From positions 1 through 23,840 of IMG/VR virus record IMGVR_UViG_3300020371_000057: a stretch of DNA of 23,840 nucleotides; one strand, given 5' to 3'. Of this stretch, positions 16,415-19,219 are shown one piece after another. The stretch's first letter is position 1. The number at the start of each line of letters is the position of its first letter. Under the pieces are notes generated by a model. The model did no database searches, had not been told where the DNA came from, and was given only the letters and a program-made list of their open reading frames with translations. This stretch comes from a virus. A program made the translations under genes and the position numbers.

Positions 16415-17566
16415 TCAGAAGGCAGCGTTGCCAGTAGAACCGGTTGCAGCACCAGCGATCAGTTCGACGCAGGCAGCAGGGTTCAGGTAGTCAGCGCCCA
16501 TGGCGAGACGACCCAGGATCACGTCACCCTGATAAATCACGGAGACGTCACCGGAGGTCACTTGCACCTGAGGACCGATGGCTTCCACGCAAGCAGCAGC
16601 TTCACGTTGGAAGATCAAGCCACAGGAGTTTGCGAACTCGGTCTCTTCACCGTACTCGTTGTTGATGCCGGCTACGTCGTTAGCGGCGTCTTCAACAGCA
16701 GGAGACACGAAGTCACCAGTGTTGGTGGGAGCGGCGACACCAGGGTTAGTGGCAGAAGCCGTAGCACCGAACTTGGTGCCATACTGGCTGAAGAACGGAA
16801 TGTTCATGGACTTGAAGATCTTGATGCCAGCGATTTCGACGACACCTTGACCACGCTGACGTGCAGTACCTTGCTCGTCGCGGTTGATCAGACCAGAGTC
16901 ACCAACCTTTTGGATCAGCTCATAGTATTGGCGGGGGTTCAGAACACCCACGCGACCTTCGGTGCTAACACCCTTCTCATCCATAGCAGCGGCTGCATCA
17001 TAGAAAGCAGCGACCAGCTTGTCGGAATCGTAAGCTTCAGAAGCGTTACCAGTGCCGACGCGGATCTGGGTACCACCCGGCTCAACAAAGTTAGTCTTGG
17101 TGATAGGGGAAGCAGCACGAGCACCACGAGCAATCGTACGGAAGATCAGACGGTCATACTTCTCAGCGAGAGCATAGCCGATCTTACGTGAGATTTCAGA
17201 ACGCAGATCGTAGTGTGCGAGAGTCTCGTCAAGGTCGTAGACGAATGCGCTGGAGATCAGCAGGTCGTCAACGGTGACGGTCTTCTCGGCCACCGGGGGT
17301 GCACCGTTGCTGTTACCAAGGATGGCGTTACCAGGGGTGTGGTACTCAGCGGTCGTGCGACCGGTGTAGATGAACTGCATAGACTTACCGTTGGTAAGCG
17401 TACGCTTGGTCACCAGGTCACGAGCGATAGCATTGTACTCGAAACCTTTGAACATCTCTCCACTGAACAGCTTCAGATAGAGAGCGCGGGCGTCACCCGC
17501 GGAGTTAGCCTGACCAGGACGAGTCAGACTCGTGGTCAGAGTATTAGATTGATGTACGTTAGACAT
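16415..17566 (-). CDS. 10: Major capsid protein (gp10A-like)
   Basis: This 383-residue protein is the HK97-fold shell subunit of T7-like phages (T7 gp10A: 345). Matching features are LYLKLFSGEMFKGFEYNAI in the N-arm region, FIYTGRTTAEYHTPGNAI, and the E-loop and spine region KTVTVDDLLISSAFVYDLDE followed by YDLRSEISRKIGYALAEKYD. The C-terminal half contains VVEIAGIKIFKSMNIPFF and the closing LGRLAMGADYLNPAACVELI. A length extension such as T7 gp10B by frameshift is not visible before the terminator. The gene has a leader of about 160 bases with palindromes and a promoter-like site. No Shine-Dalgarno is seen next to the ATG, which is surprising for the most abundant virion protein. A terminator follows 20 bases after the stop. 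Confidence 0.96.
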   Translation of the reverse strand: MSNVHQSNTLTTSLTRPGQANSAGDARALYLKLFSGEMFKGFEYNAIARDLVTKRTLTNGKSMQFIYTGRTTAEYHTPGNAILGNSNGAPPVAEKTVTVDDLLISSAFVYDLDETLAHYDLRSEISRKIGYALAEKYDRLIFRTIARGARAASPITKTNFVEPGGTQIRVGTGNASEAYDSDKLVAAFYDAAAAMDEKGVSTEGRVGVLNPRQYYELIQKVGDSGLINRDEQGTARQRGQGVVEIAGIKIFKSMNIPFFSQYGTKFGATASATNPGVAAPTNTGDFVSPAVEDAANDVAGINNEYGEETEFANSCGLIFQREAAACVEAIGPQVQVTSGDVSVIYQGDVILGRLAMGADYLNPAACVELIAGAATGSTGNAAF

Positions 17567-17598: not shown

Positions 17599-17657
17599 CC
17601 AAACGTTTGGAAATTTTTGTTGCAAAATTTTTGTGGTCTATCCCACCGTCTAGACGG
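17599..17657 (-). promoter_or_regulatory. Two perfect 12-base palindromes in the capsid leader
   Basis: CCAAACGTTTGG (17599-17610) and CCGTCTAGACGG (17646-17657) each equal their own reverse complement. They lie 36 bases apart, with an AT-rich stretch between them containing AAATTTTTG and AAAATTTTT. Both are noncoding and upstream of the capsid ATG. They could be short RNA hairpins that protect or process the capsid mRNA, or protein-binding sites. No T-run follows either on the minus strand, so they are not terminators. Confidence 0.5.
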
Positions 17658-17672
17658 CTAATGGGTATCCGC

Positions 17673-17688
17673 GTACGGGCCAAAAGCC
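17673..17688 (-). promoter_or_regulatory. Putative phage promoter before the capsid gene
   Basis: The minus strand reads GGCTTTTGGCCCGTAC, sharing CCCGTA with the site before the fibre gene and with the remembered Syn5 promoter core. It lies about 110 bases upstream of the capsid ATG, in noncoding DNA, which is the position of T7 phi-10. The match is only six bases, so position carries most of the weight. Confidence 0.35.
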
Positions 17689-17695
17689 AATGCAA

Positions 17696-17722
17696 GGGAG
17701 GTCCGACTCTGAGGTGCCTCCC
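17696..17722 (-). promoter_or_regulatory. Hairpin after a small cysteine-motif gene
   Basis: GGGAGG and CCTCCC form a 6-bp stem around a 15-base loop, starting six bases after the stop of the preceding small gene. Only a weak T-containing stretch follows, so it is more likely a processing or stability element than an efficient terminator. Confidence 0.4.
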
Positions 17723-17728
17723 AAGCTA

Positions 17729-17920
17729 TTACAGAAGATCTTTAAGACACTTCTTTTGTTTACGACACTGCGCCTTTTTTGTACCGCACTGACCACATCT
17801 TTTAAATACCGGTTGTCCCCCTGATTGAGGGAAGTAAGGTACAGGTGTAGCCTTTGCTAAAGAAGACTGGTGTTTCATGATGTATTTAATAATTTGTAGG
17901 CGTGGGCGCTTTCCGAACAC
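17729..17920 (-). CDS. Small basic protein with CxxC...C motif, unknown function
   Basis: The frame gives 63 residues from a GTG at 17920, or 49 from an ATG at 17878. The GTG has AAGGAG three bases upstream, a strong Shine-Dalgarno but tightly spaced; the ATG has none, so the start is unsettled. The conserved-looking part is PVPYFPQSGGQPVFKRCGQC followed by GTKKAQCRKQKKCLKDLL. Four cysteines (CGQC, then two single Cys) among many Lys and Arg suggest a small metal-binding or nucleic-acid-binding fold. It lies between a 27-residue gene and the capsid leader. I do not recognise a named family. Short length is the main reason for doubt; the cysteine spacing and the Shine-Dalgarno argue for a real gene. 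Confidence 0.55.
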   Translation of the reverse strand: MFGKRPRLQIIKYIMKHQSSLAKATPVPYFPQSGGQPVFKRCGQCGTKKAQCRKQKKCLKDLL

Positions 17921-17973: not shown

Positions 17974-18057
17974 TTAGTTTTTAGTTGTGCGCTTAACGAC
18001 GTAAGCAACGCCCCGATAGGTCAGGACGACTTCTTTTTTTTGTGCAGTTTGAGACAT
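17974..18057 (-). CDS. 27-residue micro-protein resembling DUF4278 N-terminus
   Basis: The frame encodes MSQTAQKKEVVLTYRGVAYV then VKRTTKN and a TAA. The block VVLTYRGVAY is the hallmark of the DUF4278 family of small cyanobacterial proteins (typically LTYRGVxY near the N-terminus), here cut off soon after the motif. A GGAG lies six bases before the ATG, the best Shine-Dalgarno in this part of the genome. An upstream in-frame ATG at 18069 would add four residues but has poorer spacing. Function is unknown. It is too short for ordinary gene callers; the motif and the ribosome site are the evidence. Confidence 0.6.
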   Translation of the reverse strand: MSQTAQKKEVVLTYRGVAYVVKRTTKN

Positions 18058-18073
18058 GAGAAACTCCATATAC

Positions 18074-18097
18074 CTTACCCCCCGTTCCATGAGTAAG
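18074..18097 (-). promoter_or_regulatory. Leader hairpin before the 27-residue gene
   Basis: CTTACTC and GGGTAAG form a 7-bp stem with one G-U pair around a 10-base loop that contains an ATG. It ends 16 bases before the ATG of the 27-residue gene. A role in mRNA stability or translation is possible; nothing more can be said from sequence. Confidence 0.35.
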
Positions 18098-18121
18098 ATG
18101 CCTGCGTCCCGAAGGATGAAC

Positions 18122-18136
18122 GTACGGCTGAAGTCT
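18122..18136 (-). promoter_or_regulatory. Possible phage promoter after the 48-residue gene
   Basis: The minus strand reads AGACTTCAGCCGTAC, sharing CCGTAC with the site before the capsid gene and CCGTA with the site before the fibre. It is noncoding, a few bases after a stop codon and about 65 bases before the 27-residue gene. The match is short, so this is tentative. Confidence 0.25.
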
Positions 18137-18138
18137 AG

Positions 18139-18285
18139 TCAGTATCCCAGTTTTTTCAATGCAGCGTTTCTTGCTTCTGCTGCCCTGACAACGTCTGAAG
18201 CTTTGGATTTGTTTTCTGGTTTACTAAGGTAACCACGCACAAAGTCAAGGACAACGTTGCTGTTCTTTTTCTTTTTGTTAGGCAT
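18139..18285 (-). CDS. 48-residue basic protein, unknown function
   Basis: The protein begins MPNKKKKNSNVVLDFVRGYL and ends EARNAALKKLGY. It has a Lys-rich head, a hydrophobic helix and a second amphipathic helix (SDVVRAAEARNAALKKL), so it is probably a small helical protein that binds nucleic acid or a virion partner. The frame is open further upstream to 18447, but that extension runs antagonistically through the 50-residue gene in another frame, so I start at the ATG at 18285. This ATG overlaps the end of the 50-residue gene by eight bases (ATGCCTAA), a normal coupling arrangement. I do not recognise a family. Confidence 0.65.
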   Translation of the reverse strand: MPNKKKKNSNVVLDFVRGYLSKPENKSKASDVVRAAEARNAALKKLGY

Positions 18286-18430
18286 TTTTTTTCTTTTTAG
18301 CCTTTGATTTCGGGAAACCAGCCTGCATATTGTCGTAGGCTTTTTTAGAGATAGTTGATTTGTTTTTGGGGCGAGAAGTACCAGCCGCTCTGCGAGCGTT
18401 GATGTTATCGTAAAGTCCTCGTTTAGCCAT
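18278..18430 (-). CDS. 50-residue conserved phage protein (MAKRGLYxNINARRxAG type)
   Basis: The frame starts MAKRGLYDNINARRAAGTSR, continues NKSTISKKAYDNMQAGFP and ends in a lysine-rich tail. The opening resembles small proteins that are common in marine phages and usually lie close to head genes; their function is not known to me. It starts six bases after the scaffold stop, so it belongs to the same transcript. It is about 40% basic or polar and has no cysteine. A virion or assembly role is inferred from location only. Confidence 0.75.
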   Translation of the reverse strand: MAKRGLYDNINARRAAGTSRPKNKSTISKKAYDNMQAGFPKSKAKKKKNA

Positions 18431-18436
18431 AACGTT

Positions 18437-19219
18437 TTAGAAATCAATGTCAGAATACTGAAGCTTGTCTACAACCTCTTGCCTGTAAGCAGGGTCACGG
18501 TCATAGCGTGGATCTTGCATAGCGCGTACAACTTCTGCCTGGCTACGGAAACCATTAACTGACTGTGCAGGTTTACCCTGAATCATGTTGTTTTCGTATC
18601 CGACAGAATCATTGTATTGCATTTGGAGTCCTTTGATTGCAAGGTTAATTGCAGCAAGGTTACCTGACTCGATAACACCGTCAAAAGCTTGAACAGTGTC
18701 TGCGTCTAGGTTTTCACCAGCCCAGGCAGTGATCTGTTGGTACTGCTGCTCGCCACCAACACTATCAAACACTTGACTTACTTCTTGTTCAGAAAGTTCT
18801 CTACCTTCTACTGCTTGTTGAGGTTCAAGTTGTTCTTGATAACGGAAGTAAAGATCTACCAGATCTTCAGATGACATGCTAGTCAACTCTGAGATCGACT
18901 CCTCACTGAGTTGTCCATTCTCATCGTACTCTTCAGTCAAATTTTGAAAGAAGGTAATTCCTTCATCAATATCTTCCGTCTGTTCTTCAGTGACCTCTTC
19001 TGATTCTTGCTGTCCTTCAGAATCTTGTGAACCAAGCTTCTTCTGCAATTCGATGTAAGCCTGTTCAAGATCTTGTGCTGATTTATATTTACCAGCTAGA
19101 AGACCTTCTTGCTGTGCTTGCATCTCTTCGCCAATAGCAAGAGTTTCAGCATCACGTTCCTCTGCAATTTGAATTGCTTGTGGATCGTTACTGGGATCGT
19201 AAGAAAGTAGTTCTGCCAT
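18437..19219 (-). CDS. 9: Capsid assembly scaffold protein (gp9-like)
   Basis: This 260-residue, strongly acidic, helical protein lies between portal and capsid genes. T7 gp9 (307 residues) guides procapsid assembly and leaves before DNA packaging. The segment LLAGKYKSAQDLEQAYIELQ is the usual marker of phage scaffold proteins of this class. It is followed by a Glu/Gln-rich stretch (EEVTEEQTEDIDEG) and, at the end, helices with QAEVVRAMQDPRYDRDPAYR, again typical. The C-terminus is the expected capsid contact. It begins five bases after the portal stop. Confidence 0.93.
   Translation of the reverse strand: MAELLSYDPSNDPQAIQIAEERDAETLAIGEEMQAQQEGLLAGKYKSAQDLEQAYIELQKKLGSQDSEGQQESEEVTEEQTEDIDEGITFFQNLTEEYDENGQLSEESISELTSMSSEDLVDLYFRYQEQLEPQQAVEGRELSEQEVSQVFDSVGGEQQYQQITAWAGENLDADTVQAFDGVIESGNLAAINLAIKGLQMQYNDSVGYENNMIQGKPAQSVNGFRSQAEVVRAMQDPRYDRDPAYRQEVVDKLQYSDIDF

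Follow-up and report, generated by a model that had tools for sequence, protein, structure and literature searches.

The window, by which we mean the whole stretch of viral DNA analysed here (23,840 nucleotides), contains a micro-ORF between its scaffold and major capsid genes. It runs on the minus strand from an ATG at 18057 to a stop codon at 17974 and encodes 27 amino acids, MSQTAQKKEVVLTYRGVAYVVKRTTKN. The features of this region are, in the order of transcription:

18437..19219, minus strand: scaffold / head assembly gene, upstream of the micro-ORF (phrog_1052, E 1e-62)
18430..18278, minus strand: lysine-rich small ORF between scaffold and riboswitch (phrog_25774, E 4.1e-19)
18285..18139, minus strand: lysine-rich small ORF between scaffold and riboswitch; no convincing match when scanned without its first three residues
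18073..18125, minus strand: aptamer of a Glutamine-II (type 2 glutamine, "downstream-peptide") riboswitch, RF01704, found by cmscan
18118..18122, minus strand: 5' strand of the aptamer pseudoknot, CGTTC, pairing with 18087..18083; invariant in 56 of 56 aligned sequences
18092..18097, minus strand: 5' strand of aptamer helix P2, partner 18079..18074; two-sided changes in 6 of 6 pairs, 94% of cells paired (56 sequences)
18083..18087, minus strand: 3' strand of the pseudoknot, GAACG, pairing with 18118..18122; invariant in 56 of 56
18064..18067, minus strand: Shine-Dalgarno-like GGAG, 6 nt 5' of the micro-ORF ATG
17974..18057, minus strand: micro-ORF, 27 amino acids plus stop
18001..18018, minus strand: YRGVAY codons, a single DUF4278-like module; Y, R, G and Y are common to the aligned sequences, and the module aligns by hhalign to the third module of the host protein
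17878..17729, minus strand: 49-amino-acid ORF with a cysteine-rich end (RCGQCGTKKAQCRKQKKCLKDLL), resembling an annotated hypothetical protein in the related record L002 (2732-2926)
17631..17722, minus strand: second structured RNA (capsid leader element); hairpin GGGAGG-CACCTCAGAGTCGGA-CCTCCC, then core TTGGC...CCG-TACG-CGG...GACCAC
16415..17566, minus strand: major capsid gene, downstream of the micro-ORF (phrog_27239 and phrog_267, major head protein)

The minus-strand gene set of the window also includes a tail tubular A match. Pfam and PHROG searches found no family for the 49-residue ORF. A psbA query gave no match in the window, and L002 lists no psbA in this interval (18437 to 17566) either.

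An earlier note on this DNA had placed a 27-residue micro-gene at 17974-18057 without naming a strand. The coordinates are correct and the strand is minus; read on the plus strand, the interval begins LVFSCALNDV and has no ORF from its first base. The ribosome-binding signal described in that note is also present, with GGAG at 18067..18064, 6 nt ahead of the ATG. It is indeed rare in this phage: a four-base motif, defined as GGAG, GAGG or AGGA, precedes 3 of the 20 listed window ORFs, the micro-ORF included, and is absent from the true upstream sequence of the ORF ending at 18139. The expectation that such DNA would usually be called noncoding agrees with the annotation of its relatives, as a CDS ends at the micro-ORF stop in four (L002, L003, L128 and L136) of the 11 named relatives that carry the micro-ORF.

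The aptamer is the sole Rfam match at gathering scores in the whole window. It covers the full model (positions 1-60) at 47.0 bits against a gathering score of 33, with an E-value of 1e-8, and ends 15 nt before the ATG. The earlier note had missed this riboswitch heading the micro-gene. In an alignment of 56 sequences, 95.9% of cells are paired, both helices covary and two-sided changes occur in 11 of 16 pairs; the covariation score is 0.408, against 0.125 for shuffled alignments and at most 0.092 with partners slid by 1-3 columns. No variation occurs in the five pairs of the pseudoknot, which therefore speak neither for nor against it.

According to the accessible part of a review, glutamine binding raises expression in type 2 glutamine riboswitches (PMC6316151), and the portion available of a crystal-structure paper proposes a stabilising effect of the ligand on the pseudoknot that leaves the ribosome site free (PMC6698751). 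Simple folding of 92 leaders gave a mean openness of the Shine-Dalgarno motif of 0.311 when free and 0.354 with the aptamer formed; the motif became more open in 43 leaders and less open in 13, and that of the window was unchanged. A four-base motif precedes 95 of the 124 related ORFs described below among the matches listed and is absent from the other 29, so that its exposure is not the whole story. We think it likely that glutamine acts as an on-switch for the micro-ORF.

We collected relatives by two scans of viral contigs, each returning at least 120 stretches: one with an aptamer pattern, the other with the second RNA as query, so that the presence of this RNA in the latter set is by selection. 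Together with the window and named phage regions, the fetched contigs amount to 217 viral sources. Among the matches listed in them, the aptamer is followed by an ORF of 13-79 amino acids bearing Y[RK]G..Y in 124 of 129 cases, with an ATG start in 119 and GTG in five. Three of the five exceptions end soon after the aptamer (L102, L114, L121), and two look like chance (L028, L075). The parse demands CGTTCA[TC] and CGCA, and some divergent aptamers are left out by it (e.g. L056, L076, L089, L096 and L120).

Sixteen of the sources are named records, comprising 14 phage isolates (L003, L124-L135, L137) and two uncultured phages (L002, L136). Rfam identifies the riboswitch in 11 of them, including P-SSP7, which carries both riboswitch and micro-ORF (MKVTFVYRGVAYTRVIG) although the gene is not called there. 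It was not found in the fetched stretch of the other five: S-SBP1, 7B11-B, DSL-LC07, S-SRP01 and S-CBP3.

The codons of the micro-ORF evolve as coding, and its amino acids are under constraint. For 94 distinct 12-codon cores, compared in 807 pairs less than 30% different, pS is 0.42 and pN 0.125, a ratio of 0.29; other frames of the same DNA give pN/pS of 1.66 (131 pairs) and 1.16 (238 pairs). As the cores had been chosen by their motif, the ratio was recounted without the four motif codons, giving 0.40. Within the clade of the window, eight ORFs have a pooled pS of 0.51 and pN of 0.15. Both the search among relatives and the comparison of synonymous with nonsynonymous change, which the earlier note had put forward as checks, thus came out in favour of the gene. 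Altogether, the locus is almost certainly a type 2 glutamine riboswitch plus a coding ORF, with the micro-ORF encoding the downstream peptide.

A stricter aptamer pattern found at least 120 stretches in genome contigs, of which 80 were examined for peptides. Among the matches listed, an ORF with the motif follows the aptamer in 78 of these 80 loci. The distinct host proteins printed are 55-65 amino acids long from the first start codon (L190 is cut) and contain three modules, LTYRGxxY, LTYRRxxY and LxYRGxxY. The two exceptions are L171 and L169. The latter (PABE01000131.1), filed as a Porticoccaceae MAG, is cyanophage-like DNA with an aptamer, a micro-ORF having YRS for YRG, the second RNA and an apparent capsid start. 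A similar case outside the 80 is L225, a single-cell contig of Prochlorococcus in which a one-module ORF and the second RNA accompany an aptamer of phage type.

In the host protein, DUF4278 (PF14105) is complete, with a match to profile positions 1-57 at 44.2 bits. The 27-mer scores 17.3 bits over positions 42-57 of 57, below the gathering score of 25.3. Two longer phage ORFs (17.2 and 18.3 bits) and a 38-amino-acid form of the window ORF (20.5 bits) also stay below it, and a 20-amino-acid phage form has no match to this profile. The phage ORFs align to profile positions 37/41-57 only and possess one module, short of the full-length three-module domain. In a profile comparison by hhalign, the phage peptides fall on the third module of the host protein (probability 90.8, E 1.2e-6). 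In addition, among PHROGs the 27-mer matches phrog_5049 best (E 3.7e-4, residues 2-25), and the same family comes first for the host protein (E 1.1e-5). For the phage peptide we claim kinship in one module, and no membership in DUF4278. The resemblance to DUF4278 reported earlier stands, below the Pfam gathering score, but it concerns the last module and not the start of the family.

The window micro-ORF is 11 codons shorter, in frame, than the 38-amino-acid form of L002 and L319. In a clade alignment of eight ORFs, the missing codons are present in L002, L022, L319, L015, L293 and L334, and contig L030 has the same trimmed form as the window. Forms of 13-17 amino acids without this part are common in other phages among the matches listed. 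The earlier proposal of a host-derived peptide kept in trimmed form is thereby upheld as to a trimmed relation to the three-module host protein, seen in the third-module match and in the 11 codons fewer than in L002 and L319. That a phage took it from a host we infer, as the peptide is too short for rooting a tree. Around 1322-1362, L058 has a divergent aptamer-like match followed by a 60-amino-acid ORF with two YRG modules, a form between the one-module phage and three-module host ones.

The position of the unit is also conserved among the viral matches listed. A major capsid gene lies downstream in 99 of the 101 loci with at least 1500 nt on that side, at a median of 346 nt from the aptamer; a capsid match is absent downstream in L012, a short locus, and in L016. 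psbA is found upstream in 86 of 124 loci, its last aligned codon being 12-14 nt ahead of the aptamer in 35 of these, and a scaffold gene was seen in 62 of 124.

Between the micro-ORF and the capsid gene lies the second RNA. It was found by pattern in at least 148 loci (100 distinct strings), part of which were fetched for it; other copies include L124:2470-2562 and L133:2474-2563. Among the matches listed, 133 copies leave 700 nt of room, and all of them have the capsid start 37-101 nt downstream (median 55). A position-only parse finds three pairs of its UACG-type hairpin intact in each of the 109 distinct sequences; a first direct parse (108 of 108) had required a paired hairpin and was partly by construction. 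Five pair types occur at two of these three, for which the shuffle means are 47 and 55, and an outer pair is formed in 97 of 108 sequences (shuffle mean 51). RNAalifold on the raw MAFFT alignment gave a weak consensus of 11 pairs, four with two-sided change, because gaps are misplaced in that alignment. Helix P1 competes with the CCGT..ACGG hairpin for one CC, and the CCGT..ACGG palindrome rarely varies. The leader stems appear in minimum-free-energy folds, with z-scores of -2.1 for the window and -2.9 for P-SSP7.

A covariance model, R1, scores 93.7 bits on the window copy, which is itself included in the model alignment. The covariance model recovers the second RNA in 16 of 16 named records at E <1e-9, L125, L130, L134 and L136 having been used in building it. 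None of eight Prochlorococcus, Synechococcus or cyanobacterial MAG loci matched; L169 did. By pattern, the RNA occurs in two of 120 genome-collection loci among the matches listed, L169 and L225, both phage-like. Rfam gave no convincing match for it, and it looks like an undescribed RNA family. We rejected a Syn5-type phage promoter as the identity of its TTGG core, since the promoter sequence, taken from the accessible part of PMC3950665, has no match in the window at three or fewer mismatches. Host RNase E is raised during P-SSP7 infection, according to the portion seen of PMC10989914, so that a structured capsid leader might plausibly be used for protection or as a processing boundary.

The hairpin just ahead of the core of the second RNA carries the loop CACCTCAGAGTCGGA in 79 of the 145 copies listed, that of the window included, and is a tRNA T-arm in 66 (e.g. 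L006, L033 and L124). A complete tRNA gene ends there in six of the 145 listed copies according to ARAGORN (L133, L258, L261, L274, L320 and L329). These six, together with L046, L066 and L300, tRNA-like by eye, were left out of a test for an acceptor-like stem. With free geometry the test gave a modest excess, a mean helix of 5.67 vs 5.06. With a narrower geometry, 31 of the 41 distinct T-arm cases allow a stem of at least 5 bp, whereas swapping the tails gave 13.7 on average and never more than 21; this geometry was picked after the free-geometry outcome and is therefore partly fitted, and the pairing sequences differ widely. In all 20 T-arm loci open to this test, the acceptor-like 5' strand falls within the last part of the micro-ORF. 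The acceptor stem does not show in the minimum-free-energy fold of P-SSP7.

From these elements one could assemble a single composite RNA device covering the pre-capsid stretch of T7-like cyanophages, an idea we regard as rather improbable. The glutamine riboswitch would gate the micro-ORF, whose last codons would provide the 5' strand to a tRNA-like fold, made of an acceptor stem and a T-arm and abutting the leader RNA. Translation would open this fold, and host glutamine would thereby decide the cutting of late transcripts between psbA and capsid, as well as the stability of capsid mRNA. In the window, the micro-ORF ends about 250 nt ahead of the leader RNA, hence the two do not overlap; as another hairpin also replaces the tRNA-like part there, the device of the window would be a variant.

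The explanation we favour, and consider probable, is a real micro-gene of T7-like cyanophages, the downstream peptide of a glutamine riboswitch; more tentatively, this peptide may act in trans on a nitrogen-linked system of the host. That the ORF arose by chance in noncoding DNA might be suggested by its very small size and frequent lack of annotation, but the conserved frame, the motif and the aptamer contradict it: the recurrence of start region, frame and motif behind the same aptamer, together with the trimmed form shared with L030, is more than chance, and we give this reading practically no weight. Translation from an in-frame ATG at 18090, inside the aptamer, would yield the 38-residue form of the window ORF with its higher DUF4278 score. 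This ATG, however, lies in a part of the aptamer that is the same in all 56 sequences, and the aptamer ATG is in frame in only 39 of 124 loci among the matches listed, where about one third is expected by chance. We rejected such a start on these two grounds, as scarcely credible. It is also very unlikely that the window copy is a decaying remnant left non-functional by the 11-codon deletion: codons kept by six members of the clade are indeed gone, but the deletion is in frame and common to L030, the module is intact, the Shine-Dalgarno motif is kept, and the 13-17-residue forms lack the same part.

More serious, if still unlikely, is a role in cis, with the micro-ORF as a glutamine-gated capsid leader whose translation, more than its peptide, determines how the capsid leader RNA is folded, processed or translated. 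The capsid gene is where this would require it in nearly all loci with room, a covarying leader RNA stands between the two, and the acceptor-like strand overlaps the ORF end in every testable T-arm locus. Against it, the peptide itself is under amino-acid constraint, the window ORF stops well short of the leader RNA, and hosts carry the riboswitch and a DUF4278 gene without the leader RNA in the loci listed.

On the favoured explanation, high glutamine in the infected cell would lead to synthesis of the peptide. As one module of a nitrogen-linked small host protein, it would then act in trans on that system, either by imitating the host DUF4278 protein or competing with it, or through contact with glutamine synthetase of the kind that IF17 makes. 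A glutamine synthetase inactivating factor like IF7 or IF17 would be expected to bind and inhibit this enzyme. Host nitrogen control is our leading guess for the target, though a tentative one. An orphan micro-ORF thus becomes a testable unit, a phage gene probably sensing host glutamine, and a test is feasible since P-SSP7 has a laboratory host and the same riboswitch and micro-ORF. If true, the nitrogen state of the host would be tied to late infection through a viral peptide that is gated by glutamine and encoded ahead of the capsid gene.

In the accessible parts of the open-licence literature, we found no account of the one-module unit recurring before the capsid gene of T7-like cyanophages, nor of the adjoining leader RNA; the RF01704 seed may hold phage sequences. 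Glutamine riboswitches borne by phages are described, in the portions seen of these papers, for T4-like cyanophages and phage Melnitz (PMC9602691, PMC9964418, PMC9004378). Those are other types of phage and, as far as these excerpts go, Melnitz has a glnA-like aptamer tied to tmRNA and no YRG peptide. phrog_5049, the closest phage family, has no function given. With DUF4278 and the N-terminus of IF17 the peptide shares the YRGxxY module, and in hosts the same riboswitch lies upstream; the phage form differs from DUF4278 in having one module instead of three and in covering the last third of the profile only, under the curated cut-off. The micro-gene belongs to a described class, a type 2 glutamine riboswitch plus downstream peptide, a combination known from marine cyanobacteria which this phage has in reduced form. 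The 2010 description of the Downstream-peptide motif reports, in the part available, ORFs typically of 17-100 amino acids with conserved amino-acid sequence (PMC2864571), and the review cited above places the aptamer, in its accessible part, in marine picocyanobacteria (PMC6316151). Our unit resembles that class in its aptamer, above the gathering score, and in the ORF of 13-79 amino acids behind it; it differs in occurring in T7-like cyanophages, set ahead of the capsid gene.
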